DNA of 58,042 nucleotides. Source: an uncultured Alphaproteobacteria bacterium (GTDB lineage: Bacteria > Pseudomonadota > Alphaproteobacteria > UBA7985). The DNA lies in the NCBI GenBank assembly GCA_905479265.1, contig CAJQLX010000026.1, positions 1-58,042 on the forward strand, read 5' to 3'. The notes under the pieces were generated by a model that did not search any database, was not told the DNA's origin, and saw only the letters and a list, made by a program, of their open reading frames with translations. The position numbers and the translations under genes are program-made. Shown here in pieces: positions 264 to 58,042 of this stretch. Numbering within the stretch: position 1 is the first letter of the stretch; each line of letters opens with the position of its first letter.

Positions 264-455
264 TTCTGGGGCTTGGGCGCTCGCGGTGCCCACCTGTGAT
301 CGATTGCTTCACCGATTTGCGCTGTGCCACGGCGTTTCCTTGGGTCCATCGTCAAAGACCAACGCAGCCTGCGTCCCTGGCCAACGGTTGACCTGTCCCC
401 GTCTCGCCGTGCACCCTGCGTTCGCAAGATTTATACAGAATCGGAGGAGGCACGC

Positions 456-779
456 ATGAAGATCGATAAGGCTTATCACGACGTTGGCGGTGATGATTTT
501 GGCCCGGTTCCCATCGATGATGGATCGTATCAGCTGTGGGAACGGCGTGTTGATGCCATGATGCGGCTGCTGTCGTCTCCGGCGGTGGGTTTGATGCGCG
601 TCGATGAATTACGCCGCGGGATCGAAACACTCGGCGAAGCCACCTACAACGCCGAACCTTATTACGGAAAATGGGCGCGCTCGTTGGCCAAAATCATGAT
701 CGAAAAGGGCGTTTTGAGCCAAGCGGATCTGGATGCGAAGATCGCTGAATTGCGCGCTGAGCGCGGGCTGACCCCGTGA
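456..779 (+). CDS. Nitrile hydratase beta subunit, N-terminal half (ScnB-like)
   Basis: The 107-residue product matches the N-terminal domain of nitrile hydratase beta chains: an early MKIDKAYHDVGG segment, then FGPVPID and a helical region with NAEPYYGKWARSL, the family's 'Y-Y-x-x-W' patch. The start at 456 is set by a strong ribosome site (GGAGGAGG at 443-450). In ordinary nitrile hydratases this region is fused to the SH3-like half encoded by the next gene. Here the two are separate, as in thiocyanate hydrolase (ScnB/ScnA) and toyocamycin nitrile hydratase. It could alternatively be labelled a nitrile hydratase accessory protein, since those share this domain, but the missing N-half in the next gene makes a split beta subunit more likely. 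Confidence 0.8.
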   Translation: MKIDKAYHDVGGDDFGPVPIDDGSYQLWERRVDAMMRLLSSPAVGLMRVDELRRGIETLGEATYNAEPYYGKWARSLAKIMIEKGVLSQADLDAKIAELRAERGLTP

Positions 780-1075
780 TGCAGGCGATATTTGGCCCCG
801 GCGACCGAGTGCAGGTCATGGATTTAGAAGCCGAACAGGGCTTAACCGGGCACATGCGAGCGCCGGTCTATTGCCGGGGCAAAACCGGTGAGATTGAGCG
901 GTTTTGTGGGGCTTTTGGCAATCCCGAAACCTTAGCCTATGGCGGAGACGGCACGCCCGCCCAACCGCTATACCGCGTTCGATTCAAGCAAGCAGATGTC
1001 TGGCCCGGCTACGCCGGTGCGGCGAACGACTGCATCGAGATTGAAGTCTATCAACATTGGTTAAAGGCTGGCTAA
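776..1075 (+). CDS. Nitrile hydratase beta subunit, C-terminal SH3-like half (ScnA-like)
   Basis: The 99-residue product is the SH3-barrel half of a nitrile hydratase beta chain. It shows the family run GDRVQV, then GHMRAPVYCRGKTGEIER, then PQPLYRVRF-type residues (AQPLYRVRFKQADVW) and an acidic end. The gene starts with GTG at 776 or ATG at 779 and overlaps the previous stop by 1-4 nt, so translation of the two halves is coupled. Together with the flanking genes it forms the order N-half, C-half, alpha, which is the scnB-scnA-scnC order of thiocyanate hydrolase. The reaction is hydration of a nitrile to an amide, or hydrolysis of thiocyanate; sequence alone does not decide which. Confidence 0.82.
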   Translation: MMQAIFGPGDRVQVMDLEAEQGLTGHMRAPVYCRGKTGEIERFCGAFGNPETLAYGGDGTPAQPLYRVRFKQADVWPGYAGAANDCIEIEVYQHWLKAG

Positions 1076-1079
1076 ACCC

Positions 1080-1715
1080 ATGTCCCACGCGCATTCACAC
1101 GACCATCATCACGATCATGACCATGACCACGCGCCCATTGAGGCCGAGGATACGTCGTCCTCAGACACGGCTATTCTCGCCGATGCCTTGCGGATGGTGT
1201 TGATTGAGAAGGGGATTTTTACAGCCGCTGAGGTGCAAGACCAGCTGACATTGATGGAGGGGCGTTCAGACCGCAATGGCGCGGCCATGATCGCGCGCGC
1301 CTGGGTGGATGCCGACTATCGAGACGCGCTGCTCGCCGATGGCGCTGCGGCGGCTCAAGCGCTTGGGTACGATACCAAGGGCACGCCTCTGATTGTTCTG
1401 GAAAACACCGCCAAGGTTCACAACGTCGTGGTTTGTACGCTGTGTTCCTGCTACCCGGTCACGCTGCTTGGCCCGTCGCCGGAATGGTACAAGTCCAAGG
1501 CGTACCGTGGCCGTGTTGTGCGCGATCCGCGTTCGGTTCTGCGGGAGTTTGGGACAGAGATTGGCCCGGATCGCGAGGTGCGCGTCCATGATTCCACGGC
1601 CGACATGCGATACATGATTATGCCCAAGCGCCCGAAAGACAGCGCGGGGATGACAGAGGAAGCCTTGGCGGGGCTGATCACGCGCAACGGATTGATTGGC
1701 GTTGCTGAACTCTAG
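1080..1715 (+). CDS. Nitrile hydratase / thiocyanate hydrolase alpha-type catalytic subunit, cobalt form
   Basis: The 211-residue product carries the metal site V-C-T-L-C-S-C with cysteines at about residues 119, 122 and 124. Threonine after the first cysteine is the signature of cobalt rather than iron enzymes, and two of the cysteines are normally oxidised to sulfinate/sulfenate. Downstream residues (GPSPEWYKSKAYRGRVVRDP) are typical of the alpha chain. An unusual feature is the N-terminus: a stretch of about 20 residues very rich in histidine and aspartate (HSHDHHHDHDHDH), which could hold metal ions. No P14K/P47K-type activator gene lies next to it. It starts 4 nt after the previous gene and closes a three-gene operon. 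Confidence 0.9.
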   Translation: MSHAHSHDHHHDHDHDHAPIEAEDTSSSDTAILADALRMVLIEKGIFTAAEVQDQLTLMEGRSDRNGAAMIARAWVDADYRDALLADGAAAAQALGYDTKGTPLIVLENTAKVHNVVVCTLCSCYPVTLLGPSPEWYKSKAYRGRVVRDPRSVLREFGTEIGPDREVRVHDSTADMRYMIMPKRPKDSAGMTEEALAGLITRNGLIGVAEL

Positions 1716-1739: not shown

Positions 1740-2399
1740 CTAATCCGGCAAGGCGTCCAAGGTTTGCAGCAGGCTGAGATTGACGTGTTGGCGCAAGGTA
1801 TCGGACGCCAACTGGGTATCGCGGGCCAGCGCGGCATCAAACAGGGTCCGGTGCTCGTCAAATGCTTCTTGGCCCCGGAACGTGACGACCAGCATCATGT
1901 ACCGCAGATATTTGTCGTAGAGCACGGCGTGGAGGGACAGCAGGTTCTTGTTATTACACGCTTGAATCAAGGCGAGATGAAACTCCCAGTCGTAGCGCTT
2001 CCACAATTCTTTGTCGGAATAGTCGCCCAAGACCATCCGGTCTTCCACCCGTCGCAGCTTATGGTGGGCGGCGACGAGATCCCCTTCCCAGTCGGCATCG
2101 CCAGACGTGATGGACTCTTCCAGCGCGAAGCATTCCAAGAGGATCCGCATGGTTGCGACTTCATTCAGGTCTTTCTTTGATATGGGCGTGACGAAGAAGC
2201 CGCGTTGCTCTTCAGCCGCAACAAATCCTTCAGAACTCAGGCGGTTAAGGGTCTCGCGCAAGGTGGAAAGGCTCGCCTCATACCCATCGCGCAGGGCATT
2301 GAGCTTGAGCTTTTTTCCAGGCTCCAGCACGCCGAAGATGATATCGTTCTTCAGTCGATGATACGTGGACGATCCGACCGTGTTGAGTTTACCAACCAT
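1740..2399 (-). CDS. GntR-family (FCD subfamily) transcriptional regulator
   Basis: A 219-residue regulator read toward the left. Residues 1-75 form the winged helix (SSTYHRLKNDIIFGVLEPG, then LSTLRETLNRLSSEGFV), and the remainder is the all-helical FCD ligand-binding domain (about 85-210), which usually binds an organic acid, sometimes with a metal held by Asp/His residues. I chose the start MVGKLNTVGSS at 2399, because it gives a normal FCD length and leaves an AT-rich palindrome upstream; the frame stays open to 2471. The gene is divergent from the TRAP transporter operon and most likely controls it in response to the imported compound or an intermediate. Confidence 0.85.
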   Translation of the reverse strand: MVGKLNTVGSSTYHRLKNDIIFGVLEPGKKLKLNALRDGYEASLSTLRETLNRLSSEGFVAAEEQRGFFVTPISKKDLNEVATMRILLECFALEESITSGDADWEGDLVAAHHKLRRVEDRMVLGDYSDKELWKRYDWEFHLALIQACNNKNLLSLHAVLYDKYLRYMMLVVTFRGQEAFDEHRTLFDAALARDTQLASDTLRQHVNLSLLQTLDALPD

Positions 2400-2439
2400 A
2401 GACCCTGTTTTCTTGCTCGGGCATAAAAACCTGTACTCT

Positions 2440-2459
2440 AAAATTTCATCAGATATTTT
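2440..2459. promoter_or_regulatory. Putative GntR operator between regulator and dctP
   Basis: An imperfect palindrome, AAAATTT (2440-2446) and ATATTTT (2453-2459), sits 40 nt before the regulator's start in the 193-nt divergent gap. A related palindrome occurs at 9534-9573 inside the enzyme block, so both may be sites for the same repressor. A possible promoter toward dctP is TTGCAT (2516-2521) with TAGTAA (2538-2543), spacing 16. These assignments rest on inspection only. Confidence 0.4.
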
Positions 2460-2592
2460 CGCAGCAAACACTATGCCTATAAATTCCCAAAATGTCAGAT
2501 GTTTTTAAAAAAATCTTGCATACTGCGAATTGAATGATAGTAATCACTTCGTCCGCGCATCCGCGTTTGGATAAATGTTTGGGAGGACAATT

Positions 2593-3600
2593 ATGTTTAA
2601 GATGACGCGTCGCGCTGCGATCGTTTCTCTGGCCGCGCTTAGCCTGACCGCTGGTGCCGCTACCCCGGCTTTCGCTCAAGATAAGCTGACTTTCACTCTG
2701 GCAACCTCTGGCTCCGACACGGACCAGCGTTCTGTTGCTATGGCGAACGTGTTTGCACCCATGGTTGCAGAGTTCGCTGACTACCGTCCGGGTTACAACG
2801 GTACGCTGTTCGCACAGGGCACCGAACTCGAAGCCATCAGCCGTGGTAACTTGACCATGTCGATCGCTTCCGCTCAGGAAATGGCTCAGTTCTTCCCTGA
2901 GTTCTCGATCTTCGCAACCGGCTACGTTCATCAGGACGCGGCGCACCAGGTTCGCGTCTTTAACGATCCGCTGATGGATGCGTTCAAGGCGACCGCTGAA
3001 GAAGAGCTCGGCGTTAAGCTGCTTTCCGTGATGTACCTTGGTCGTCGTCACGTAAACCTGCGCCAGACCCGTGATGAGTTGAACGTTCAGACACCAGCGG
3101 ACCTTGCTGGCGTGAACCTGCGTATGCCGGGCACCGATTCTTGGCAGTTCCTCGGTAAGGCTCTTGGCGCTGCGCCAACACCTATGGCCTTCACCGAAGT
3201 TTACACCGCGCTGTCTACTGGCGCTGTTGACGGCCAGGACAACCCACTGCCAACCGTTGTGGATGCTAAGTTCTACGAAGTGACCAACCAGATTGCTCTG
3301 ACCTCTCACCTTGTTGACCTGAACTACATCGCGTTCTCCAAGGAAACTTGGGACAGCCTGACATCAGACCAGCAGCTGACTGTTCAGCGTGCCGCTGATG
3401 CAGCGGCGGCTTACGGTCGTTTGAAGCAGCTGGACAAGGAAAACAGTCTTGCTGACTTCATCCGCAGCAATGGCGTTGAAATCTACACACCTGATCTCGA
3501 AGCGTTCCGTACGCACGTGCAGGCGCAGTACGTTGGTAGCGAAGTTGCTGCCACGTGGCCTGAGGGTGTACTGGAAAAGATCAACGCACTCGGCAACTAA
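2593..3600 (+). CDS. dctP: TRAP transporter periplasmic binding protein (DctP)
   Basis: The 335-residue protein begins with a Sec signal peptide (TRRAAIVSLAALSLTAG, cleavage near AFAQD) and has the DctP/SBP_bac_7 fold. The run NLRMPGTDSW at about residue 175 holds the conserved arginine that binds the carboxylate of the ligand in this family, and ALSTGAVDGQDNP is the second family hallmark. The start at 2593 is supported by GGGAGGA at 2580-2586. Codon use is more biased than in neighbouring genes (many GCT, GTT, CTG), as expected for an abundantly made binding protein. It delivers an organic acid to the DctQ/DctM permease encoded next. The ligand is unknown, though the linked enzymes suggest a hydroxy- or cyclic acid. 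Confidence 0.93.
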   Translation: MFKMTRRAAIVSLAALSLTAGAATPAFAQDKLTFTLATSGSDTDQRSVAMANVFAPMVAEFADYRPGYNGTLFAQGTELEAISRGNLTMSIASAQEMAQFFPEFSIFATGYVHQDAAHQVRVFNDPLMDAFKATAEEELGVKLLSVMYLGRRHVNLRQTRDELNVQTPADLAGVNLRMPGTDSWQFLGKALGAAPTPMAFTEVYTALSTGAVDGQDNPLPTVVDAKFYEVTNQIALTSHLVDLNYIAFSKETWDSLTSDQQLTVQRAADAAAAYGRLKQLDKENSLADFIRSNGVEIYTPDLEAFRTHVQAQYVGSEVAATWPEGVLEKINALGN

Positions 3601-3630
3601 GACGAGTCTGACAACCACGGGAGCGTTCTG

Positions 3631-4362
3631 ATGACAGATACTGTAAAAGCACTCGCCCGTGGTGCTGCAATGATCGCCGCCAGCTTGCTGGCGGCGGTTT
3701 TTCTTACCTATCTCATGCAGCAGTATTCGATCCGCATCCTCGATGAGCGGTTCAAGTGGTCGAACGAGATTGTTGGCATCATCTTCGTCTGTCTGCTGTT
3801 TTTCTGGGGGCCGTTGCTGATCCGCAAATGGCTGTCTCACGGCGCAGAGTTCATTGCCGCCGGCTTGCTGGCCGCTGTCTTTGTGGTCTTTCTGCTCCAG
3901 ATTTTTTCCCGCTATGTCCTGAAAATGCCGTTTGGCTGGACGCTGGAGCTTTGCCTGATTTTGTGGGTCTGGCTCGTGTTCTTTGGCTGCGCCTTTGTGG
4001 TGCGCCAGCGGGATCAAGTGACCTTTGATGTGCTTTACTTCGCTTTGCCAAAGCCTGTTCGCATGGTCTTTGGCATCCTGACCTGTGTTTGCATCGTTGC
4101 AGCCTTTGTCTGGGCGCTTGTGCCGACATGGGATTACGTGGACTGGATGAAAATGCGCAAGACCGCCACCGTGAGAAATCCGCTGGACGGCGCAAAGATT
4201 CCGCTGCGGACGATCTTCATGGTGTTCATGATCTTCATGATTGCCGTCATCGCGCGCTTCATTCAGCGCACGATCGAAATTGTTCGCGCCGGCCCGGATG
4301 TGGATCTGGTGGAACTTGAAACCGCCGAAATGATCGCAGAAGAAGAGGCGCGCCAGTCATGA
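3631..4362 (+). CDS. dctQ: TRAP transporter small permease (DctQ) with internal duplication
   Basis: This small membrane subunit links the binding protein to DctM. At 243 residues it is clearly longer than the usual 160-180. The extra length is an N-terminal repeat: residues 11-66 align without gaps to residues 71-126 at an offset of exactly 60, with about 23 identities in the first 50 positions (for example IAASLLAAVF against IAAGLLAAVF, and F-x-W-x-x-E in both). Each copy holds two membrane helices, so the protein has about six helices instead of four. The second copy is the one that continues into the normal DctQ domain. The gene overlaps dctM by 4 nt. Confidence 0.88.
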   Translation: MTDTVKALARGAAMIAASLLAAVFLTYLMQQYSIRILDERFKWSNEIVGIIFVCLLFFWGPLLIRKWLSHGAEFIAAGLLAAVFVVFLLQIFSRYVLKMPFGWTLELCLILWVWLVFFGCAFVVRQRDQVTFDVLYFALPKPVRMVFGILTCVCIVAAFVWALVPTWDYVDWMKMRKTATVRNPLDGAKIPLRTIFMVFMIFMIAVIARFIQRTIEIVRAGPDVDLVELETAEMIAEEEARQS

Positions 4363-5654
4363 GCCTCGAACTCATTCTCTTCCTGATCGCGCTTTTCGGT
4401 CTTGCAGCGATTGGCACCCCCATTGGCTACACCATTCTGATTGCGTCTCTGGTTTATCTCGGCACGGCTGGGTTGGACTTGGCGCTGGCGGGTGAAAAGA
4501 TCCTGCAGGGGTTGTTCAACAGCTTCATCCTGCTCAGCGTTCCGCTGTTCATCGTTGCGGCAAACATCATGAATGCGGGCAGTATATCGGACAGACTGCT
4601 CAATTTCTGTATTGCCATGGTTGGTCGCTTTCGGGGTGGCTTAGGGCATGTGAATGTCTTGGCCTCGCTGATCTTCTCCGGCATGTCCGGCTCAGCGGTC
4701 GCGGATGCGGCGGGTATCGGTAAAATCATCATTGGCATGATGACCAAAGAAGGGCGCTTCTCCCGAGGCTATGCGGCTGCGATTACCGCAGCGTCTGCAA
4801 CGATTGGTCCGATTATCCCGCCGTCCATCCCGATGGTGCTTTACGCGCTGGTGTCCAACACATCGATTGGTGCGCTGTTCCTGGCTGGGATTGTGCCTGG
4901 ATTGATCATGGGCGGGGTTCTGATGGTGATGAACGCCATCATCGCCACGCGCCGGGGTTTCACGATGGAAGATCCGGTGCCGCTGCGTAAGCTGCCAAAA
5001 ACCACGGCACAGGCGTTCCCGGCATTGTTGATGCCTGTGATTTTGCTCTACGGCATCTATGGCGGCGTGACCACACCGACCGAAGCGGCCGCGGTTGCCG
5101 CATTCTATGCGCTGGTGTTGGCGGGTGTCTTCTACCGCGCGCTGTCGCTGAAAAAACTTTACAGCGTGCTGGTTGAAAGCGCGCGATCCTCGGCCGCGGT
5201 GGGCGTGGTGATCGGCGGTGCGCTGATCCTCAACTATATCGTTCTGACCGAGAATATCCCTGCGATTATGTCGGGTTTCCTGACGGATTTGGACGTTCAT
5301 CCGCTGGTGTTCCTGTTCGGTATTAACGTGTTGGTTCTGTTGCTGGGTTGCGTGCTGGATGCAACCACAATCATTCTGGTGATTGTCCCCCTGTTCATCC
5401 CGGCTGCGCGGGCGTTGGGTATTGATTTGGTCCACTTTGGGGTTCTGGTGGTGGTCAATTCAATGATCGGACTGATCACGCCGCCTTACGGCATATTGCT
5501 GTTTGTTATCAACGCTGTCACCGGCATTCCCCTGCGGGAAATCATCGTGGAAATCTGGGGCTTTCTCGCTGTCCTCGTGCTCGCGCTGATCATTATGATT
5601 CTCAGCCCCGGCCTTGTGCTGTGGTTGCCCAGACTGTTTGGCTACGCCGGCTAG
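4359..5654 (+). CDS. dctM: TRAP transporter large permease (DctM)
   Basis: The 431-residue, very hydrophobic protein has the DctM layout of about 12 membrane helices. Recognisable family stretches are GTPIGYTIL near the N-terminus, FSGMSGSAVADAAGIG at about residue 110, the TIGPIIPPSIPMVLY segment and TPTEAAAVAAFYAL, and LITPPYG near the C-terminus. It is the ion-coupled transport channel (usually sodium) of the DctPQM system. The start overlaps the dctQ stop by 4 nt (ATGA), so the two are translated together. After its stop come 123 nt with two RNA hairpins before the first enzyme gene. Confidence 0.95.
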   Translation: MSLELILFLIALFGLAAIGTPIGYTILIASLVYLGTAGLDLALAGEKILQGLFNSFILLSVPLFIVAANIMNAGSISDRLLNFCIAMVGRFRGGLGHVNVLASLIFSGMSGSAVADAAGIGKIIIGMMTKEGRFSRGYAAAITAASATIGPIIPPSIPMVLYALVSNTSIGALFLAGIVPGLIMGGVLMVMNAIIATRRGFTMEDPVPLRKLPKTTAQAFPALLMPVILLYGIYGGVTTPTEAAAVAAFYALVLAGVFYRALSLKKLYSVLVESARSSAAVGVVIGGALILNYIVLTENIPAIMSGFLTDLDVHPLVFLFGINVLVLLLGCVLDATTIILVIVPLFIPAARALGIDLVHFGVLVVVNSMIGLITPPYGILLFVINAVTGIPLREIIVEIWGFLAVLVLALIIMILSPGLVLWLPRLFGYAG

Positions 5655-5710
5655 CCCGTGCGGTGGGAAGGCTGCTTCCCCATCTTTTCACGGCCCGGTT
5701 GGGTCAAAAC

Positions 5711-5762
5711 GAGCAGGTCTCATGTCTGAGAACCTGCGGAACACCCGACACGGACGTCGGGT
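5711..5762 (+). other. Two tandem RNA hairpins between dctM and the oxidoreductase gene
   Basis: The first hairpin pairs GCAGGT-CTCA (5713-5722) with TGAG-A-ACCTGC (5727-5737, one bulged A). The second pairs ACCCGAC (5743-5749) with GTCGGGT (5756-5762). Neither is followed by a T run, so they do not look like terminators. They could protect or process the mRNA and lower expression of the enzymes relative to the transporter. Confidence 0.45.
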
Positions 5763-5777
5763 CGGGAGTGACGGTTT

Positions 5778-6875
5778 ATGACGAAGACTTCGCGGCTGGG
5801 TCTTTTGGGTTTTGGCCTGGTCGGACGACGCCACGTTGAAGCGGCTCAAGGGCTGGATACGGTGACCTTTACCACGGTCGTGGAAACCGACCCCGCGGGG
5901 CGTGCTGCGGCGCAGGCCGCTGGCTTACAGTGCGTCGATACGCTGGAAGCGCTGCTCGAAGATCACCCCGTTGACGGCATCGTCATTGCCACGCCAACCC
6001 TGCTGCATATCGAGCAAGCCCGCGCTTGTGTCGAGGCGGGGTGCCCTGTGCTCGTGGAAAAGCCAATCGGCGTCACCTCCCGCGAGGCTGAGGCGACGGT
6101 GGCGCTGGCTGAGGCCAAGGGCGTTCCCGTGCTCGTCGGCCATCACCGGCGGCACAATTCGATCGTGCGCGAGGCCAAGGCGATTCTGGAACACGGCGGC
6201 GTCGGCGACATTCGCTCGATCTCGGCGCAATGCCTGTTTTACAAGCCCGATTCCTACTTCGACATTGCCCCGTGGCGTAAGAAATTTGGCGCTGGCCCGA
6301 TTTCGGTGAACCTGATTCACGATGTCGATTTGCTCCGGCATTTTTGTGGAGAAATCGAGTCCGTTCAGGCGATGTCGGTGCCCTCTCGTCGCGGCTATGA
6401 CAACGAAGAACTCGCCTCAGCACTGTTGCGCTTCACCTCCGGCGCGTTGGCGACGGTTACCGTCTCGGACAGCGTGGTGTCGCCGTGGAGCTGGGAGTTT
6501 ACGGCCGAAGAAAACCCCGTCTACCACCCAACCGGCCAGAGCTGTTACGCCATATCGGGCAGCGAAGGGGCTTTGTCTGTCCCTGATTTGCGCCTGTGGC
6601 GGCACCAAGGCCAGCCCGACTGGTGGAACCCGTTAACCGCAGAGCAACGCGCCCACGATGGATCCGATTCGCTGGTCAATCAGCTTGGGCACTTTCACCT
6701 CGTGCTGCAGGGCCAAGAAGCGCCGCTGGTCGGCGGACGCGAAGGGCTGCAGTCGTTGCGGGTGATTGAAGCCATCCAAGAAGCGGCAGACACCGGCGCG
6801 CGGATTGCCGTTGATATTGGTATCGACAGCAGCCGCAAAACGGCGGTCATCAGCAACAACAAAACGGCAGCCTAG
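5778..6875 (+). CDS. Gfo/Idh/MocA-family NAD(P)-dependent dehydrogenase
   Basis: The 365-residue protein opens with a Rossmann fold (LGLLGFGLVGRRHVEA, residues 7-22), followed by the family's V-E-K-P-I-G motif at about residue 94 and the catalytic-site histidine in NLIHDVDLLRHF near residue 180. Members oxidise or reduce a secondary alcohol on sugars, inositols or other polyhydroxylated rings. The ATG at 5778 follows a GGGAG ribosome site. It is the first enzyme gene after the TRAP operon and lies 21 nt before the fused TIM-barrel/HPPD-like gene. It most likely performs the first oxidation of the imported compound. The substrate cannot be read from the sequence. Confidence 0.9.
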   Translation: MTKTSRLGLLGFGLVGRRHVEAAQGLDTVTFTTVVETDPAGRAAAQAAGLQCVDTLEALLEDHPVDGIVIATPTLLHIEQARACVEAGCPVLVEKPIGVTSREAEATVALAEAKGVPVLVGHHRRHNSIVREAKAILEHGGVGDIRSISAQCLFYKPDSYFDIAPWRKKFGAGPISVNLIHDVDLLRHFCGEIESVQAMSVPSRRGYDNEELASALLRFTSGALATVTVSDSVVSPWSWEFTAEENPVYHPTGQSCYAISGSEGALSVPDLRLWRHQGQPDWWNPLTAEQRAHDGSDSLVNQLGHFHLVLQGQEAPLVGGREGLQSLRVIEAIQEAADTGARIAVDIGIDSSRKTAVISNNKTAA

Positions 6876-6896
6876 CGCCAACAGGGACACGAACTT

Positions 6897-8693
6897 ATGA
6901 GCATTGAAGACGCGCTTTTTGTCGATCTAAGGGGTGGCATACCGCTGGATGCAGAGCGCGCCAATGCCGTTGCGCAGGCTGGGTTTCGATCGCTGTTGCT
7001 GCATGAGCAGCAATTGCAGGGTGATCCGGCGGATGGGCGTCGAGCGCTCGCGCGGGCGGGGGTGTCCAAGGTCATCATCGCCATCGAACACGCTGATTCA
7101 GCCGCGCTGGAGAGGGCGGAGGCCTTTGGTGCCGCAGGGGTGGTCGTCACCCCCACGGACGCAGCGCGATCGAGCCTGCGAACGGCGTCTTTGATGGCCG
7201 CTGAACTGGGTTTGGCGTTCACCATCTGCCCTGCCGCAGGCTCGGCACTGGAGCAAAAGGTCATGGCGGGCGAGGATTTTGGCGAGATCCCGCTGTGCTT
7301 ACAGACCGACCGCATGCTGGCACAGGGGCGCAGGCCAGCAGATTTCCGCAAGCTCAGCGACGCGCAGTTGGGTTTGTTACAATTGACCGACCGCCACCTG
7401 CGCGGACTGCAAAGGGACGCCCAAGCCCTGCCCGGTTTGGGGCATTTAACGCTTGCACCGCTGGTCGCATTGTTGGCGCGCAAGGGTTTTGTGGGCCCGT
7501 GGGTGGTTTCAGCGGGCGCGGCGCGGGCGGAAGCGGGGGATCTTGAGACGCTGAGCAAGCAGGTGCGATTGGCGCGTCAGGCGTTGTTGAACGTGCTGGA
7601 CCAAGCGTCCTTCGCCGAACCATCGCTGCAAGCAGCGCGCGCGATTTTGCCGCCGCGTGTGCAGGCAAAGGGCTTTGAATTCATCGAGCTGGCCATCGAC
7701 GCCCGGACGCGAGCCGAGGTTGAAACCGTGCTATCCGCGCTGTCTTTCCGCCGTGAGCGGCAGCATCACAGCGCCCCGGTTGAGCTGTGGCGCCAAGGGG
7801 CGATCAACATCGTTCTGAATGAAGAAATTCAAGCCGAGGGCGCGCGCCCTTTTGTCTGTGACATGGGCCTGCGGGTCGATGATGCGCACCTTTCGGCGCA
7901 GCGGGCGGGAATGTTGGGTGCGCACCACCATGCGCCATCACGGCAACCCGGTCGCTTGCCGATTCCAGCGATGCGCGACAGCCTTGGGACGATCGTTCAC
8001 TTCATTGACCAAAAATCCGACACGCACCGCGTATGGGACATCGAATTCACGCCAACGCCGGTCCATCCTTCGCCCCAGCCGGCCGGCTTGCGCCGGGTGG
8101 ACCACATGGCGCAGATCATGCCAGAAGGCGAGATGGACGGCTTGATGCTGTATTACCTCTCTACCTTTGGCCTGCGGAAACGCACGCAAGTGGAGATGCA
8201 AGACCCTGCGGGTATGGTCGCCAGTCAAGCGTTGGAGACACCCGAGGGCGAGGTCCGGATTGCGCTGAACGGCGTTGATGCGGCGCACGTCACCCCCGCC
8301 AGCACCAGCGTTCAGCACGTCGCGCTGCAAACGGACGATATTTTTGAGACCGCAGCCGTGCTGGCCGCCAACGGTTTTGCCGCTCTGCCGGTGCCAAGCG
8401 CGTACTATCAGAACATCGCCCAACGCTTTGATCTTGATCCAGACCTCTTGGCCGCTTTGACGCGAGCCAACGCGCTCTATGACCGTAACAGTGCGGGGGG
8501 TGAGTTTTTTCAGGTGTACAGCTTGCCCTTGAGCAGCGGTCTTTTCTTTGAGATCGTGCAGCGCAAGGGCGGGTACAGCGGCTACGGCGCTGCAAATTCG
8601 CCCGTGCGTCGTGCGGCATTGGCCCAGTTGCCCGATCACCCTGCGGCGCTGCCAACCCAACGTTACTCGCAAAAGGCGGATACCCATGTCTGA
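6897..8693 (+). CDS. TIM-barrel / HPPD-like fusion protein (QuiC1-related), N-terminal site degenerate
   Basis: The 598-residue protein has the layout of bifunctional 3-dehydroshikimate dehydratases: an N-terminal AP-endonuclease-2-type TIM barrel (about 1-260) fused to a 4-hydroxyphenylpyruvate-dioxygenase-like half (about 280-590). The C-terminal half keeps all three metal ligands in context: His in RRVDHMAQIMP, His in VQHVALQTDDI and Glu in FFEIVQRKGGYSGYG. The barrel looks eroded. Where the family has Glu in an 'FEALAW'-type strand this protein reads FTICPAAG, and where it has a final 'SLEIFND' Glu it reads VVSAGAA. A Gln in LLQLTD survives. So dehydratase activity by the barrel is doubtful, and the HPPD-like half may be the working enzyme. 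It overlaps the next gene by 8 nt. Confidence 0.8.
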   Translation: MSIEDALFVDLRGGIPLDAERANAVAQAGFRSLLLHEQQLQGDPADGRRALARAGVSKVIIAIEHADSAALERAEAFGAAGVVVTPTDAARSSLRTASLMAAELGLAFTICPAAGSALEQKVMAGEDFGEIPLCLQTDRMLAQGRRPADFRKLSDAQLGLLQLTDRHLRGLQRDAQALPGLGHLTLAPLVALLARKGFVGPWVVSAGAARAEAGDLETLSKQVRLARQALLNVLDQASFAEPSLQAARAILPPRVQAKGFEFIELAIDARTRAEVETVLSALSFRRERQHHSAPVELWRQGAINIVLNEEIQAEGARPFVCDMGLRVDDAHLSAQRAGMLGAHHHAPSRQPGRLPIPAMRDSLGTIVHFIDQKSDTHRVWDIEFTPTPVHPSPQPAGLRRVDHMAQIMPEGEMDGLMLYYLSTFGLRKRTQVEMQDPAGMVASQALETPEGEVRIALNGVDAAHVTPASTSVQHVALQTDDIFETAAVLAANGFAALPVPSAYYQNIAQRFDLDPDLLAALTRANALYDRNSAGGEFFQVYSLPLSSGLFFEIVQRKGGYSGYGAANSPVRRAALAQLPDHPAALPTQRYSQKADTHV

Positions 8694-9492
8694 TACTGAA
8701 ACCCGCGCGTGGTGGACCACGTCCATCATCGACATGGAGCCCGGGCGGATTGCGTTTCGGGGGGAGAAGGTCGAAGACCTGATCGGGAACAGCAGCTTTG
8801 CTGAGATGATCTGGTTCATGGTCGTGGGCACCAAGCCTTCACCCGGTCAAACTGCGCTGCTGGATGCAGCTTTGGTCGCTGGTGTTGATCACGGTCCCCA
8901 AGCGCCCTCAATTGCCGCCGCGCGGATGGCGGCAACGTGCGGGGTTGGTTTGAACAACGCGATGGCGACGGGCGTGAACATGCTTGGCGACGTCCACGGC
9001 GGTGCGGGTGAGCAGTGTGCGGAGCTGTATTACGATATTGCAGCGCGCATGGACGCCGGGGCAGCGCTGGAGGATGCGACCGTTGCTGGTCTGGATGCTT
9101 GGCGGGCCCAGTATGGAAAGATCGTCAGCGGTTTCGGCCACCGGTTCCACAAGCCAATCGACCCGCGCGCCCCGCGCCTGATGGCTTTGGTGCGCGAGGG
9201 TGCGGCAAGCGGCGAGGTGTCCGGGCGCTTTGCCGATATCGGCGAAGCGGTTCAGGCGCGCTTGAGTCACGAGCGCGAGGGCCGGGCGTTGGCGATGAAT
9301 ATTGATGGGGCAACAGCGGTCATCTTCTGCGAACTTGGGTTGCCCGCGCCCTTGTCGCGAGGGCTGTTTTGCCTGTCTCGCTCCGTGGGCATTTTGGCCC
9401 ATGCTTGGGAGCAGATGGGTGAAGGTCGCCGGAACAAAGGCCCAATGCCGCCATCCCTTCTGCCCCTCTATCAGCCGCGTGAAGAAGGCTGA
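8686..9492 (+). CDS. Citrate-synthase-like enzyme (citryl-CoA lyase family)
   Basis: The 268-residue protein is a short member of the citrate synthase superfamily, lacking much of the N-terminal part of true citrate synthases. It retains the catalytic core: GDVHGGAGEQ (first histidine), GFGHRFHKP (second histidine) and NIDGATAVIFCELG with a candidate for the catalytic aspartate. Such short proteins are usually annotated as citryl-CoA lyase and would cleave or form a carbon-carbon bond between an acyl-CoA and an oxo acid. The gene begins inside the end of the preceding one. In this cluster it could act on the acyl-CoA made by the aldehyde dehydrogenase. The true substrate is unknown. Confidence 0.82.
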   Translation: MSDTETRAWWTTSIIDMEPGRIAFRGEKVEDLIGNSSFAEMIWFMVVGTKPSPGQTALLDAALVAGVDHGPQAPSIAAARMAATCGVGLNNAMATGVNMLGDVHGGAGEQCAELYYDIAARMDAGAALEDATVAGLDAWRAQYGKIVSGFGHRFHKPIDPRAPRLMALVREGAASGEVSGRFADIGEAVQARLSHEREGRALAMNIDGATAVIFCELGLPAPLSRGLFCLSRSVGILAHAWEQMGEGRRNKGPMPPSLLPLYQPREEG

Positions 9493-9533
9493 CCTGCGGG
9501 AACCACCGACAAAGACAAAAAATTCTGGTCAAT

Positions 9534-9573
9534 TAGAAAATATATGATATTTTGCGTGTCATCATATTTTCTA
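9534..9573. promoter_or_regulatory. AT-rich palindromic operator candidate inside the enzyme block
   Basis: In a GC-rich neighbourhood, 40 nt are strikingly AT-rich and symmetric. TAGAAAATAT (9534-9543) pairs with ATATTTTCTA (9564-9573), and inside the left arm AAAATAT-ATG-ATATTTT (9537-9553) is itself a perfect palindrome. It lies 38 nt upstream of the GTG start at 9611. It resembles the palindrome at 2440-2459 and is a likely binding site of the GntR regulator, marking a second promoter in the cluster. Confidence 0.5.
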
Positions 9574-9610
9574 GGGGTGCAATCCTGCGCCATCGGAACG
9601 GAGTACTGTC

Positions 9611-10516
9611 GTGTCGGCTCCTTTATACTCACTGGCTCATCTCACATTGATCGATTGCTCAGTCCCTGAGCTGATCTACATCGCCGCGCGTTCCGGCTTC
9701 GACGCTGTCAGCCCTCGGCTGATTCCCATGAACATCCCGGGCGAGTTTGCTTGCCCTCCCGAAGACCGGGCGGGCGTCAGGGCGATGAAAACGGCGCTTG
9801 ATGTGACGGGGATCAAGGTTCTGGACATTGAGCTTGCGCGCATCACCGAAGTTTGCGACCCGCCCAGCTTTGAACCGGCGATTGAGTTGGGCGCAGAAAT
9901 CGGGGCCAAGCACATGATCATGAGCGCGTGGACCCAAGACCGCCACGACCGGGCCTTTCTGATCGACTGCTACGCCGAAACCTGTGAAATCGCGCACAAC
10001 TATGGCCTGACCGTAGATTTGGAATTTCCCTCATTTTCCCGCTTGCGGACGCTGGATGAAGCGCTCGATATCGTGCGCGCCGCCGATCAGCCCAACGGCG
10101 GGATTCTCGTCGATACGCTCTATGTCCACTTGTCGCGCGTTGACTTGGGCGAGTTGCTGCATGTCCCCGCCGATCTGCTGCACTTCTTGCACGTTTCTGA
10201 CGCCTTGCCGGGTATCGCTGACACCCGCGAAGGCATGATTCAGCTGGCCCGTGATGCTCGGCTGTATCCGGGCGAAGGGTGCATCGACTTTGCCGGTGTC
10301 GTCGAGCGGATGCCGCCGGTTCATTACTCGATTGAACTGCCCAACCAGAGCCGCGTGCGCGAACTTGGGTACGAGGAACACGCTCGGCGCTGCTTGCAAC
10401 ACGCCCAAGCGGTGTTCGGCAAAGCCCAATCTCGACGCGCGCCCATTCCCACGCTGGACCCAACGACAACCCCGTCATCTTCGACGTCAGTAAACCAGGA
10501 ACCTCTCCATGCCTGA
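9611..10516 (+). CDS. Sugar phosphate isomerase/epimerase-type TIM-barrel enzyme
   Basis: The 301-residue protein is an AP-endonuclease-2 / xylose-isomerase-like TIM barrel. Unlike the barrel fused at 6897, this one keeps a full set of likely metal ligands: Glu in LTVDLEFPSF, Asp in GILVDTLYVH, His in FLHVSDA and Glu in HYSIELPNQ. Enzymes of this type isomerise, epimerise or dehydrate keto-sugars and cyclic polyols (IolE, IolI, AsbF relatives). It starts with GTG at 9611, with a GGAACGGAG ribosome site, downstream of the AT-rich palindrome. Its end overlaps the aldehyde dehydrogenase start by 8 nt. It is probably the barrel that does catalysis in this pathway. Confidence 0.85.
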   Translation: MSAPLYSLAHLTLIDCSVPELIYIAARSGFDAVSPRLIPMNIPGEFACPPEDRAGVRAMKTALDVTGIKVLDIELARITEVCDPPSFEPAIELGAEIGAKHMIMSAWTQDRHDRAFLIDCYAETCEIAHNYGLTVDLEFPSFSRLRTLDEALDIVRAADQPNGGILVDTLYVHLSRVDLGELLHVPADLLHFLHVSDALPGIADTREGMIQLARDARLYPGEGCIDFAGVVERMPPVHYSIELPNQSRVRELGYEEHARRCLQHAQAVFGKAQSRRAPIPTLDPTTTPSSSTSVNQEPLHA

Positions 10517-11918
10517 ACCGCTTAACCTTGATCAGACCGCACAGCTCGACGCCATGCTGGAGCGCGCCCGCGCTGCGATGGCTCAGATCGAAGACTTCAG
10601 CCAAGACCAACTGGACACACTCGCCCAAGCCATTGGCTGGTACGCCAGTAACGAGGCGACCTTTACCCGCCTTGCGCAAATGGGCGTGGATGAAAGCGGT
10701 ATTGGTGACCGCGAAGGGCGCCCGGGTAAGCGGTTCAAGATTCACGGCGTTCTGCGCGATGCGCTTCGGCAGAAAAGCACCGGTGTGGTCGAAGTGGACG
10801 AAGAGCGGGGTCTGGTAAAGTACGCTAAGCCCGCTGGTGTGATTGCCTCGCTGATCCCCATGACAAACCCGGCGCTTACCCCGCCGGTGACGGGTGTCTA
10901 TGCTGCCAAAGCGCGGAATGCCGTCATCTTTTCCCCGCACCCGCGCACCAAGACCACGACGGCGGCGATGGTGGATGTGATGCGCGCGGCCTGTGTTGAG
11001 GCGGGCGCGCCGGCTGATTTGTTCCAGTGTGTGACCGAACCGTCCATTCCGCTAACCCAAGCGCTGATGGCGCGCTGTGATCTGACCTTGGCGACCGGTG
11101 GGAAGCCGATGGTCAAAGCGGCCTATTCGTCGGGGCGTCCCGCCTATGGCGTGGGTGCGGGTAACTCGACGATGGTGATTGACGAGACAGCAGACATCGA
11201 CATTGCGGCGCGAAACACGCGCCTGTCCAAGACGTCAGACTTTGGGTCTGGTTGCTCGGCAGACGGTAATATCGTCATTCAGGCATCCATTTATGAGGCG
11301 ATGGTCACGGCGTTGCAGGCTGAGGGCGGCTACCTTTGTACGGACGCTGAAGCGGCGCTGGTCGAAGCGGCCATGTGGGATGAAAACGGCAATCGAACAT
11401 TGGCAACGGTGGCCTGTCCCCCGCAGAAAATCGCGGCTGAGGCCGGCTTTACGATCCCAGACGACGCCCGATTTATGATGGTTTCCAACCACGGCAAAAT
11501 CGGAAAGGACCACCGCTTTTCAGGCGAAAAGCTGACCACTCTCATGGCCTTGTACCGGTTTGACAGCTTTGATGAAGCCTTGGACATGGTGCGCGGGATC
11601 TATGCTGTGGCGGGTCGAGGACATTCCTGCGGCATTTACAGCCATCGTGATGATCACATCGATGCACTGGCGCAGGTTGCGCCTGTTTCTCGCATGATGG
11701 TCCGGCAGGCACAGTCCAAAGCCAACGCGGGTTCTTTCACCAACGGCATGCCCATGACCAGTTCACTGGGGTGCGGCATCTGGGGCGGGAACATCACCAA
11801 CGAGAATGTCACCCTCAAGCACATGATGAATTACACGTGGGTGAGCCGTCCCATCCCCGAAGATCGTCCGTCCGAGCAAGACCTCTTTGGCCGCTACTTT
11901 GGTCAGGAGGTCGCGTGA
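10509..11918 (+). CDS. CoA-acylating aldehyde dehydrogenase
   Basis: The 469-residue protein belongs to the aldehyde dehydrogenase superfamily branch that makes acyl-CoA (EutE, AdhE, sulfoacetaldehyde dehydrogenase SauS). The catalytic cysteine is C249 in SDFGSGCSADGN. Upstream motifs include ASLIPMTNPALTP and VIFSPHPRTKTT, typical of acylating rather than acid-forming members. Databases commonly name such proteins sulfoacetaldehyde dehydrogenase, but no sulfonate-specific neighbour (phosphotransacetylase or sulfonate exporter) is present. It is flanked by 4-8-nt overlaps with the isomerase and the ThDP enzyme, so the trio is translationally coupled. It would turn the aldehyde released by the ThDP enzyme into an acyl-CoA with NAD(P)+. 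Confidence 0.85.
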   Translation: MPEPLNLDQTAQLDAMLERARAAMAQIEDFSQDQLDTLAQAIGWYASNEATFTRLAQMGVDESGIGDREGRPGKRFKIHGVLRDALRQKSTGVVEVDEERGLVKYAKPAGVIASLIPMTNPALTPPVTGVYAAKARNAVIFSPHPRTKTTTAAMVDVMRAACVEAGAPADLFQCVTEPSIPLTQALMARCDLTLATGGKPMVKAAYSSGRPAYGVGAGNSTMVIDETADIDIAARNTRLSKTSDFGSGCSADGNIVIQASIYEAMVTALQAEGGYLCTDAEAALVEAAMWDENGNRTLATVACPPQKIAAEAGFTIPDDARFMMVSNHGKIGKDHRFSGEKLTTLMALYRFDSFDEALDMVRGIYAVAGRGHSCGIYSHRDDHIDALAQVAPVSRMMVRQAQSKANAGSFTNGMPMTSSLGCGIWGGNITNENVTLKHMMNYTWVSRPIPEDRPSEQDLFGRYFGQEVA

Positions 11919-13708
11919 TGCTGGCGCAAACAAAGGCTCAAGGTGTGACGAAAACGGTCGCTGAGCACCTCGTTGACTTCCTTGAACGCCGGGACGTGAG
12001 GCACGTTTTTGGCCTGTGTGGTCACACAAATATTGCGGTGCTCGCGGCAATGGCTGACAGCCCCATCGACTTTGTCACCGTCCGGCATGAACAAATCGCC
12101 AGCCACGCCGCCGATGGATATGCGCGGGTGACGGGCAAGGCTTCTGTGGTCCTCTCCCACCTCAGCCCGGGTCTGACAAACTGTGCGACCGGCGTGGCCA
12201 ATGCGGCGCTGGACTGTATCCCGATGGTGGTGATCGCCGGTGACGTTCCGACGCACTATTACGGCAAACACCCGCATCAGGAAGTAAACCTGCACGCCGA
12301 CGCGTCGCAGTACGAAATCTATCGCCCTTTCGTAAAGCGCGCTTGGCGTGTGGACCGGGCAGATTTGATGGCGGACATTTTGGAAAAGGCTTTCCATTTG
12401 GCCGAAAGCGGACAGCCCGGCCCCGTGCTGGTCAACGTGCCAATGGACATTTTCAGCGAAGTCATTGCGTCAGACAGCTTTGACCGGATCGCAAGCAACA
12501 CGCGGTCGCTGATCAAGCCATCGATCGATGATGAAACGGCCCAGCGCATTGTCGATGCGTTGGCGCAGTCTGACAGCCCGGTGCTTTACGTTGGTGGCGG
12601 CATTCTGCTCTCTGACGCCAGTGCAGAGCTCGAAGCCTTTGCCGACATCATGCAAATTCCGATTGCGCATTCGTTGATGGGCAAGGGCGCGGTTCGGGAT
12701 GATCATCCTCTGGTGCTTGGCATGACAGGCTTTTGGGGAACTGAGTTGGTCAATCAGGCTTGCTTGAGTGCCGAAACCATCTTGGCCATTGGGACACGCT
12801 TCAAGGAAGCTGACTGCTCGTCTTGGTATCCCGGTTACACGTTCAATGTTCCCGGCTCCAAGATCATTCATATTGACATTGAACCCTCGGAGATTGGTCG
12901 AAACTACCCAACGGAGATTGGCGCGGTAGCCGATGCCAAAGCCGCTTTGACGGTGCTCAATCGCGTCGCAGCCAAGACGTTTCCAAAGGGTCGCGCCGTG
13001 AACCCGATGGCGGTCAAAATTACCGAATTCCGCAAAACTTTTGCCGCGTCAAATGCCAAGGCCGCAACCAGTGACGCCTTCCCGATGATGCCGGAGCGCA
13101 TTCTCGCCGACGTGCGCCGGGCGCTGCCAGTGGACGGTATCCTGACGACAGATGTGGGCTGGAACAAAAACGGTGTGGGGCAACAGTTCGACATACTGAC
13201 CCCCGGCTCAATCTTGACCCCCGGCGGGTTCGCGACGATGGGCTTTGGCCCGCCTGCCGCGATTGGCGCAAAGCTCGCTGCGCCGGAAAGAACCGTGCTT
13301 TCGCTGGTCGGTGATGGCGGCTTCGGCCAGAACCCGGCCATGCTAGCAACCGCCGTAGAGCTGGAATTGGGCATTGTCTGGCTGGTGATGAACAACAACG
13401 CCTTTGGCACCATCGCCGGTTTGCAAAAGGCCCACTATGGCCTGACCTACGGCACCACCTTCCCCGGAGAGGCGGGCGCACCGGCCAACGGTCCAGATTA
13501 CGCTTTGATTGCCCAAGCCTATGGCGCGACGGGCATGCGGGTTGACTCTGCCAACGCGCTCTTGCCCGCGCTAGAGGCCGCCTTTGCCATGAACCGGCCC
13601 GTTGTTTTGGACGTGGCGATGATCAACAACCCAACCCCGACAACGGGTCACTGGAACATTTTGGACATTTACTCACCAGAAGGCGGGATTTCGCACGTCT
13701 CAACCTGA
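11918..13708 (+). CDS. ThDP-dependent enzyme, acetolactate synthase / decarboxylase-like
   Basis: The 596-residue protein has the three-domain layout of the pyruvate-oxidase/acetolactate-synthase superfamily. The catalytic glutamate is E58 in VRHEQIASHAADGYAR. The diphosphate/Mg-binding motif is GDGG at 465-468, ending with the paired asparagines in VMNNNAFGTIAG. The start ATG (11918) shares its A with the preceding TGA stop. Position next to an acylating aldehyde dehydrogenase suggests a 2-oxo acid decarboxylase or lyase delivering an aldehyde. It does not show enough resemblance to Xsc, IolD or benzoylformate decarboxylase for me to pick a substrate. It is the last gene of the island. Confidence 0.85.
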   Translation: MLAQTKAQGVTKTVAEHLVDFLERRDVRHVFGLCGHTNIAVLAAMADSPIDFVTVRHEQIASHAADGYARVTGKASVVLSHLSPGLTNCATGVANAALDCIPMVVIAGDVPTHYYGKHPHQEVNLHADASQYEIYRPFVKRAWRVDRADLMADILEKAFHLAESGQPGPVLVNVPMDIFSEVIASDSFDRIASNTRSLIKPSIDDETAQRIVDALAQSDSPVLYVGGGILLSDASAELEAFADIMQIPIAHSLMGKGAVRDDHPLVLGMTGFWGTELVNQACLSAETILAIGTRFKEADCSSWYPGYTFNVPGSKIIHIDIEPSEIGRNYPTEIGAVADAKAALTVLNRVAAKTFPKGRAVNPMAVKITEFRKTFAASNAKAATSDAFPMMPERILADVRRALPVDGILTTDVGWNKNGVGQQFDILTPGSILTPGGFATMGFGPPAAIGAKLAAPERTVLSLVGDGGFGQNPAMLATAVELELGIVWLVMNNNAFGTIAGLQKAHYGLTYGTTFPGEAGAPANGPDYALIAQAYGATGMRVDSANALLPALEAAFAMNRPVVLDVAMINNPTPTTGHWNILDIYSPEGGISHVST

Positions 13709-56153: not shown

Positions 56154-56865
56154 CGAGTAAGGCAACCTTGAAACTGCCCGGCCCCTTGGCTGATTTGGCC
56201 GCGTGGTCCGCGGCACCGCTCATCAAGTGCAAGGCCGCGACTGCTGCATCAAAGGGATCATCGGACACAGCCAGAAAAGCCGTGCAAAGCGCGCCCGCGA
56301 CGCAGCCTGTCCCCGTGATTGACGCCATCAGCCCATCTCCGCCGGTCAGACGGACAATGCGGTCCGGTGATACGACATAATCGGTCGCGCCGGTCATCGC
56401 GACGACGGTGCGGTATTTCTCCGCCAGCAGCTTGGCCACGCCTGCGGCCTCTTCGGGGGTTGCGAGGCTATCGACGCCTTCGACCACGCCGGCCTGACCG
56501 CCGAGCGCCAGAATTTCCCCGGCGTTGCCCCGAATGATTCCGGGCCGTAGGGGGAGGAGTTGCTGGGCAACGTCGATCCGCAGCTTGGTTCCGCCCGCAC
56601 CTACGGGGTCAAAAACCCACTTTTGCGCTGCTTTTGCCGCCTGAACATAAATTTGAGCGGACTGTGGCACGCCCATATTGACCAAAACAGCCGATGCTGC
56701 GCCAGCGATGGTGTCGATTTCGGCGGGGCTGTTGGCCATGATGGGCCTTGCCGATACCGCATTCAGCGCGTCAGCGACGAAGTTCATGGTCACAGGATTG
56801 GTGACGCAGTGGACCAACGGGCGCTGGGCCTGCAGTCGCGGTAACAGGGTTCCGATGCTGGACAT
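56125..56865 (-). CDS. thiM: Hydroxyethylthiazole kinase
   Basis: The 246-residue kinase salvages the thiazole moiety of thiamine. It has PLVHCVTNPVTMNFVADALNA, ILVNMG-type residues (AVLVNMGVPQS), the VFDPVGAGGTKLR phosphate loop and the catalytic cysteine/GTG motif ITGTGCVAGA. Its ATG overlaps the TAA of the preceding binding-protein gene by one base (TAATG), so translation is coupled. The presence of ThiM without ThiC, ThiG or ThiD nearby points to salvage. Confidence 0.95.
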   Translation of the reverse strand: MSSIGTLLPRLQAQRPLVHCVTNPVTMNFVADALNAVSARPIMANSPAEIDTIAGAASAVLVNMGVPQSAQIYVQAAKAAQKWVFDPVGAGGTKLRIDVAQQLLPLRPGIIRGNAGEILALGGQAGVVEGVDSLATPEEAAGVAKLLAEKYRTVVAMTGATDYVVSPDRIVRLTGGDGLMASITGTGCVAGALCTAFLAVSDDPFDAAVAALHLMSGAADHAAKSAKGPGSFKVALLDAFYSASSQ

Positions 56866-57953: not shown

Positions 57954-57960
57954 GTGCTCA

Positions 57961-58040
57961 GGTCTCCCTCCGCTGGCATGATCCAGATCCGGTTCTATGG
58001 GTATAATCTCAGCCGTGCGTTCCGTCTCATGGTTGAGACT
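57961..58040 (-). promoter_or_regulatory. TPP riboswitch (THI element)
   Basis: Read on the minus strand, the conserved parts appear in order: GGCTGAGATT (58015-58006), ATACCC, GAACC, GGATCTGGATC and ATGCCAGCGGAGGGA (57979-57965). This is the TPP aptamer. P1 pairs GTCTC (58039-58035) with GAGAC (57966-57962). The aptamer ends 7 nt before the ATG at 57953, and its GGAGGGA is the only ribosome site, so ligand binding should block translation directly. The outermost 5' part may extend past the window end. Confidence 0.9.
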
Positions 58041-58042
58041 GA

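Follow-up and report, generated by a model that had tools for sequence, protein, structure and literature searches.

Positions 1740–13708 of a 58,042-nucleotide stretch of DNA from an uncultured alphaproteobacterium (GenBank assembly GCA_905479265.1, contig CAJQLX010000026.1; the whole stretch is hereafter the window) hold a GntR regulator, a DctPQM TRAP importer and six closely spaced enzyme genes. This island is real and conserved and, as far as the open-access literature shows, undescribed. We propose, with a probability of roughly one half, that it imports and degrades a hydroaromatic acid of the quinate/shikimate type, and that the carbocycle would be opened without aromatisation and without an oxygenase. 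The proposal draws on gene content, conservation, co-localisation, active-site residues and the dead TIM-barrel half of a fusion protein, all of which were computed. An earlier sequence-only reading had listed the same regulator, importer and six enzymes, and every one of these genes was present at the position it gave. It had also suggested a self-contained route from a hydroxylated acid to an acyl-CoA and a 2-oxo acid, which is supported here by a lyase of the citryl-CoA type that occurs with CoA-forming partners, the substrate and steps being our own proposal.

Gene content and conservation of the island

The genome is 2.9 Mb in size, and its nearest named relatives in the collection are marine Geminicoccus/Rhodospirillaceae metagenome-assembled genomes (MAGs). 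The six enzyme genes lie on the forward strand and encode a Gfo/Idh/MocA dehydrogenase, a QuiC-like fusion of a TIM barrel with a 4-hydroxyphenylpyruvate dioxygenase-like (HPPD-like; VOC) domain, a citryl-CoA-lyase-like protein (CCL), a separate TIM-barrel enzyme, a CoA-acylating aldehyde dehydrogenase (ALDH) and a thiamine diphosphate (ThDP)-dependent enzyme. The listed open reading frame starts at 8548 for CCL and 11771 for the ThDP enzyme are too long, ATG codons being found at 8686 and 11918, respectively. Gene ends overlap by 8 bases (fusion/CCL), 8 bases (TIM/ALDH) and 1 base (ALDH/ThDP), as expected of a single operon.

A species-level genome collection was searched for relatives of the ThDP enzyme at any similarity, and the best 80 of 378 candidate places were taken. 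These share 75–90% identity with the window's enzyme and come nearly all from marine Rhodobacteraceae and other Alphaproteobacteria, together with one SAR324 MAG and one gammaproteobacterial MAG. The same gene set recurs in most of these 80 loci, which is more than chance would give. Across the 74 alphaproteobacterial loci with at least 9.5 kb of upstream DNA, ALDH and the ThDP enzyme were present in all 74, the TIM barrel in 73, CCL in 71, DctM in 70 and the HPPD-like domain in 69. The genes do travel together, in favour of the sequence-only reading; lower counts for DctP, Gfo and GntR mostly reflect the 10-kb limit of the loci. Among 398 evenly sampled genomes of the phylum, the ThDP enzyme (E ≤ 1e-150) was found in four besides the source genome, and 21 have CCL (E ≤ 1e-50). 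Each of the four ThDP-bearing genomes also encodes CCL (hypergeometric probability, calculated by hand, ~6e-6, for four genomes that belong to one family and are non-independent). The two genes lie on separate contigs in genome G186, so the association is more than one of neighbourhood.

CCL itself was a misleading anchor for such searches, as many CCL genes stand in CoA-transferase and CCL pairs without a ThDP gene; the ThDP enzyme was used instead. Other Proteobacteria often have pairs of this sort with no ThDP or ring enzymes (L027–L030, L148–L157), and these probably serve another hydroxy acid. Three genomes of the window's own genus (G002, G005 and G004; loci L024, L025 and L026) have intact CCL and GntR genes beside partial or broken HPPD-like and Gfo genes, and the cluster seems to be eroding there while CCL stays. 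Many Rhodobacteraceae (L040, L098, L146) carry two extra Gfo/Idh genes and a gene for a 218–224-residue protein between CCL and TIM. The L098 copy of this protein has no Pfam match, and a 67-residue stretch of it resembles (40%) an Ensifer hypothetical protein whose gene adjoins one for a ThDP enzyme. An apparent mutual exclusion between the core Gfo and the two extra Gfo genes was rejected as an artefact of locus ends, L146 having both.

Active sites of the enzymes

The Gfo/Idh/MocA dehydrogenase (5778–6875; PF01408, PF22725) scores 118 bits against the IolG equivalog model, under the cut-off of 355. In 37 aligned homologues K95 is kept in 33, and H181 and D182 in all. The separate TIM-barrel enzyme (9611–10516; PF01261) has as its nearest solved structures 5hmq, of QuiC type, followed by IolI (1i60). 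Its metal site is intact, with conserved ligands of the IolI/QuiC type at E138, D168, H194 (His in 80 of 84) and E242.

The fusion (6897–8693) reaches only 243 bits against the QuiC model NF042435 (cut-off 1200). We take the QuiC dehydratase ligands to be E136, D167 and E241, family knowledge that was placed on the 5hmq sequence. Together they occur in 0 of 74 fusion homologues, E136 being replaced in all 74 and D167 and E241 in nearly all. Lacking a metal site, the TIM half is therefore not to be counted as a working dehydratase, and formation of protocatechuate by the fusion in the manner of QuiC appears unlikely from its residues. The fusion reported by the sequence-only reading is thus confirmed as a fusion, its TIM half as a functioning enzyme is not. 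The 2-His-1-Glu site of the HPPD-like half (H403, H474, E552) is kept in 74 of 74; with the one site lost and the other kept, the retained function is to be sought in the VOC half, perhaps that of a tautomerase or isomerase. By inspection, the situation is reversed in Azoarcus sp. KH32C, where the separate TIM protein has most of its ligands and the middle His is missing from the HPPD-like protein.

CCL (8686–9492) scores 414.8 bits against the citryl-CoA lyase model NF004864 (cut-off 261), and its closest solved structure is the citryl-CoA lyase 6hxp. Cleavage of a beta-hydroxyacyl-CoA by enzymes of this family yields acetyl-CoA and a 2-oxo acid. Residues H104, H152, R153, R161, D207 and R232 are invariant in all 81 aligned sequences, and five of these (H104, H152, D207, R161, R232) presumably match the catalytic His/His/Asp and substrate Arg positions of citrate synthase. 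The best NCBIfam model for the ALDH (10509–11918) is SauS (NF047625), at 447 bits with a cut-off of 600. Its nearest solved relatives are acylating (AdhE, acetylating acetaldehyde dehydrogenase and succinate-semialdehyde dehydrogenase), and C249 is invariant (87/87).

The ThDP enzyme (11918–13708) comprises three TPP domains; E58, D466, N493 and H36-T37-N38 are invariant in all 91 aligned sequences. The last three belong to a GHxN motif, GHTN here and GHGN in the one IolD compared, that is absent from acetolactate synthase, AlsS, pyruvate oxidase and a guanidino-oxopentanoate decarboxylase; these four have GGAV, GAKI, GDSI and GVHT at this place. Overall identity to IolD is 27%, and by score the nearest relatives belong to the synthases and lyases, among them acetolactate synthase and glyoxylate carboligase. 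Two ThDP enzymes with a GHGN motif, 34–36% identical, are encoded on plasmid pUSP3 of Aminobacter sp. MSH1 (L213, 2526–11654) in a related cluster that also holds Gfo/Idh, TIM isomerase, ALDH and cupin genes; by its gene content this is possibly another ring-opening route.

Related clusters as clues to the substrate class

Relatives point to a hydroaromatic substrate. According to the record annotation, the cluster on the Azoarcus sp. KH32C plasmid runs HPPD-like protein, TIM barrel, CoA-transferase, citryl-CoA lyase, ThDP enzyme, shikimate dehydrogenase and type I 3-dehydroquinate dehydratase. Across 18 betaproteobacterial clusters (20-kb loci, Azoarcus included), AroE homologues and the TIM barrel were each found in 17, CCL in 14, ALDH in 12, the HPPD-like protein in 11, DctM in 10, AroD in six and a CoA-transferase in five. 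In 17 of the 18 loci, no more than about 10 kb separates the AroE-type (shikimate/quinate) dehydrogenase gene from that of the ThDP enzyme. Five betaproteobacterial genomes that were checked contain 2–5 AroE homologues each in 3.7–4.8 Mb, so that the chance of finding one in a 20-kb locus is a few per cent at most. Some of the AroE matches are weak (29–32% identity), and not every one need be catabolic; those at 46–53% form a divergent clade. Of the genomes with AroD at the cluster, two in which type I AroD was searched for genome-wide and detected (G770 and G846) have a single copy. It is on the cluster's contig, with about 9 and 25 kb between it and the ThDP gene. A full set comprising AroE, HPPD-like, DSD-type TIM, ALDH, CCL, ThDP, TIM, DctPQM and AroD genes is found at L198 (genome G900).

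Streptomyces and Nonomuraea loci have CCL and CoA-transferase genes opposite ALDH, ThDP and Liv-type ABC transporter genes, with an AroE homologue inside the ~30-kb locus of both actinomycetes (2/2). The smallest clusters (L167, L204–L206) consist of TIM, AroE, CoA-transferase, CCL and ThDP genes with a Liv-type uptake system. Among the 74 alphaproteobacterial loci, 26 have an AroE homologue; wherever its gene was placed, it has the fusion on one side and CCL on the other. The Ruegeria homologue (L040), the one compared with NCBIfam, lies above the cut-off of the PRK12549 subfamily. Most AroE sequences read contain SxTP, and we take SxT to be a mark of quinate dehydrogenases. In the AroE-bearing clusters L142 and L145 the ThDP enzyme, TIM barrel, ALDH, CCL and DctP are 67–82% identical to those of the window. 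A gene for a polyhydroxybutyrate-depolymerase-type esterase, which could be an esterase of the chlorogenate type, adjoins the cluster at L171. The CoA-forming partner of CCL also varies among relatives, being an acylating ALDH, a CoA-transferase, or a plain ALDH together with a CoA-transferase, each of which would convert an acid or aldehyde to the CoA ester needed by CCL.

Proposed pathway and comparison with known systems

Quinate bears at C1 a tertiary hydroxyl and a carboxylate, flanked on either side by CH2 groups. From this structure and the enzymes above we infer the substrate, the order of steps, their regiochemistry and the homocitryl-CoA intermediate as follows. The Gfo/Idh dehydrogenase, or in relatives a quinate dehydrogenase of the AroE type, would oxidise the C3 hydroxyl to give 3-dehydroquinate, into which the AroD of some relatives might feed 3-dehydroshikimate. 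The metal-dependent TIM barrel would then dehydrate 3-dehydroquinate (loss of the C5 hydroxyl), as IolE does with inosose, to 1-hydroxy-3,4-dioxocyclohexane-1-carboxylate. The ThDP enzyme would hydrolyse the C3–C4 bond of this cyclic 1,2-dione in the way of IolD, leaving an aldehyde and an acid in the ring-opened product OHC-CH2-C(OH)(COOH)-CH2-CH2-COOH. The acylating ALDH would convert the aldehyde end into a CoA ester, homocitryl-CoA, and CCL would split this into acetyl-CoA and 2-oxoglutarate. The net reaction would be quinate + CoA + 2 NAD(P)+ -> acetyl-CoA + 2-oxoglutarate + 2 NAD(P)H, for which the atoms balance (C7H12O6 + CoASH -> acetyl-CoA + C5H6O5 + 4 [H]).

The order of chemistry (dehydrogenase, metal-dependent TIM dehydratase, ThDP ring-opening hydrolase) is that of myo-inositol catabolism by IolG, IolE and IolD, with which the GHxN motif is also shared. 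Unlike that pathway, the island has no equivalents of IolB and IolC, a CoA ester and CCL standing in their place, and its ThDP and Gfo proteins are respectively distant from IolD and below the IolG cut-off. A plain inositol route was rejected on this score and on the absence of IolB/IolC among the ten cluster proteins. Likeness to quinate/shikimate degradation via protocatechuate (QuiC/QsuB, QsuD, AroD) lies in the AroE/AroD-type genes of relatives and in the QuiC-like fusion; unlike in that route, the dehydratase of the fusion is dead, the cluster has no protocatechuate dioxygenase and it ends in CCL.

The cyclohexane-1,2-dione hydrolase of Azoarcus is an established ThDP enzyme that hydrolyses a cyclic 1,2-dione and so yields an oxo acid, and the same type of reaction is proposed here. 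That enzyme is only a distant match to the island's ThDP protein (2pgn, 152 bits), with acetolactate synthase and glyoxylate carboligase scoring higher. CCL has the score and intact catalytic residues of a citryl-CoA lyase; unlike the lyase of the reductive tricarboxylic acid (TCA) cycle, its context is ring degradation and its proposed substrate homocitryl-CoA. The ALDH is of the acylating type, as is the sulfoacetaldehyde dehydrogenase SauS, whose model it matches best. Its score is nevertheless under the SauS cut-off and the cluster has no sulfonate genes, and a sulfonate route was rejected. Judged by its sequences, the island thus resembles inositol catabolism in its handling of the ring and a citryl-CoA lyase in its final step, and is a member of neither the inositol nor the protocatechuate pathway. 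The sequence-only reading had come to a similar view, and its statements that the cluster matches no known pathway and lacks IolB/IolC, protocatechuate dioxygenase and sulfonate genes held, with the IolG, QuiC and SauS cut-offs all missed.

Importer, regulator and control sites

All three TRAP subunits are present on the forward strand and exceed their Pfam cut-offs: the solute-binding protein DctP (2575–3600; PF03480, 176 bits), the small membrane subunit DctQ (3631–4362; PF04290) and the large membrane subunit DctM (4359–5654; PF06808, 359 bits; TIGR00786, 391 bits with a cut-off of 268). The closest solved structure to DctP is 4pf6, RD1_0742 of Roseobacter denitrificans (E 1.9e-155). An AlphaFold model of DctP built on a 24-sequence alignment (mean pLDDT 71.7, compared with 34 from the single sequence) matched it with Z 24.7, and at 76% identity in Foldseek. 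The genome encodes ten DctP proteins, and another TRAP DctP gene lies at the end of the window (56865–58042, reverse strand).

The GntR/FCD-family regulator (1740–2471, reverse strand) exceeds the PF00392 and PF07729 cut-offs; its best NCBIfam match is CsiR at 123 bits, under the cut-off of 218. A divergently placed GntR neighbour is kept in relatives at 55–91% identity. The gntR–dctP gap (2472–2574) contains an imperfect inverted repeat at 2482–2531, and by-eye comparison with two related genomes (L021 and L022) shows a retained stretch resembling CAAAATGTCAGATGTTTTyAAAAAAATCTTGCATA, a candidate operator or promoter. The longest gap within the enzyme genes, 118 bases between CCL and TIM, holds an AT-rich inverted repeat, TAGAAAATAT-N20-ATATTTTCTA, at 9534–9573, possibly a second control site. 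Comparison of the three intergenic gap sequences gave no operator word common to them. Genes for nitrile hydratase beta-N and alpha subunits (324–1715, forward strand) lie immediately upstream of the regulator.

Weighing of alternative explanations

Several observations weigh against a quinate/shikimate route as drawn above. The window's own cluster has neither AroE nor AroD and the single AroE of its genome is on another contig; the first step therefore rests on the Gfo/Idh dehydrogenase, and the compound actually degraded may be a related cyclitol acid instead. CCL is lacking from four of the 18 betaproteobacterial loci, and two of the genomes with such loci (G607, G616) yielded none genome-wide at E ≤ 1e-20. 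The TIM gene was not found in L118 or L119, and where a cluster has a CoA-transferase and no ALDH, the aldehyde would have to be oxidised in another way or the regiochemistry be the other one. The HPPD-like domain, for all its conservation, is given no step. Genome G009 has DctPQM and CCL with the rest of the cluster not nearby, and from this and the eroded clusters of the same genus it follows that parts of the island may have other uses. Finally, the ligand of 4pf6 may be 3-deoxy-octulosonate (KDO), not quinate. KDO would also fit a sugar-acid importer, though it shares a hydroxy-carboxylate ring face with quinate.

The absence of AroE would be explained if the chemistry were the same and the window's lineage used another carboxylated cyclitol, such as a stereoisomer of quinate, leaving quinate and shikimate to the AroE-bearing relatives. 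The presence of Gfo/Idh and absence of AroE in the cluster of the window's genus, the restriction of AroE to about a third of alphaproteobacterial loci (26/74) and the low identity of the window's DctP to those of the betaproteobacterial clusters (41–45%) all agree with this, but given the close similarity of the core proteins in L142 and L145 a different core substrate is not needed, and we consider this reading rather unlikely. KDO or a sialic-acid-like sugar acid as the substrate is suggested by DctP, which is closest to 4pf6 and the SiaP sialic-acid binders. The window cluster has no aldolase or kinase, however, the association with AroE and AroD does not fit, and KDO pyranose is quinate-like around the hydroxy-carboxylate, so that quinate would stay compatible with a crystal containing KDO; sugar-acid catabolism is accordingly given very little credence.

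Other readings keep the substrate and change the chemistry. The ThDP enzyme might split the C3–C4 bond of 3-dehydroquinate directly as an acyloin (ketol), with the ALDH acylating one aldehyde and CCL releasing acetyl-CoA together with a C5 hydroxy-dioxo acid, to be rearranged by the TIM barrel or the HPPD-like protein. This would give both of the latter proteins roles and suit the synthases and lyases that head the ThDP matches, yet the GHxN motif in the active site is that of IolD and the TIM barrel resembles the ring dehydratase/isomerase domains of IolI and QuiC; we regard ketol cleavage as improbable. The classical route through 3-dehydroshikimate and protocatechuate, with ring cleavage encoded elsewhere, could call on the QuiC-like fusion, the AroD and AroE genes of relatives, a QuiC-type gene near the Nonomuraea cluster and one LigB-type dioxygenase elsewhere in the source genome. 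It is highly improbable given that none of the 74 fusions has the set of dehydratase ligands, that the genome has no intradiol dioxygenase (PF00775) and that ThDP, ALDH and CCL would be left with no role. The homocitryl-CoA model accounts both for a citrate-synthase-fold lyase beside a ring-opening ThDP enzyme and for the exchange of ALDH and CoA-transferase, and is therefore preferred to the readings that invoke protocatechuate, KDO or ketol cleavage.

Significance

Plants and algae commonly contain quinate and shikimate, whose textbook degradation by bacteria runs through protocatechuate and requires O2. No account of a cluster of this kind emerged from the open-access literature, in which the topics covered were quinate with citryl-CoA lyase, ring opening, TRAP, the fermentation of hydroaromatics and the catabolism of mycosporines, although subscription journals may hold one; to that extent the orthologous clusters are not already characterised. 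We tentatively suggest, at somewhat less than even odds, that the island represents an undescribed oxygen-independent, non-aromatic pathway for quinate and shikimate via homocitryl-CoA, widespread in marine Rhodobacteraceae and present also in Betaproteobacteria and actinomycetes. Brune and Schink are said to have reported fermenting bacteria that degrade hydroaromatics without aromatic intermediates. If the proposal is true, it would provide the enzymology for such quinate fermentation and a function for genes that commonly carry the annotation ‘citryl-CoA lyase’, ‘4-hydroxyphenylpyruvate dioxygenase’ and ‘acetolactate synthase’, and many marine bacteria would have another route for these compounds, leading straight into the TCA cycle and working without oxygen.

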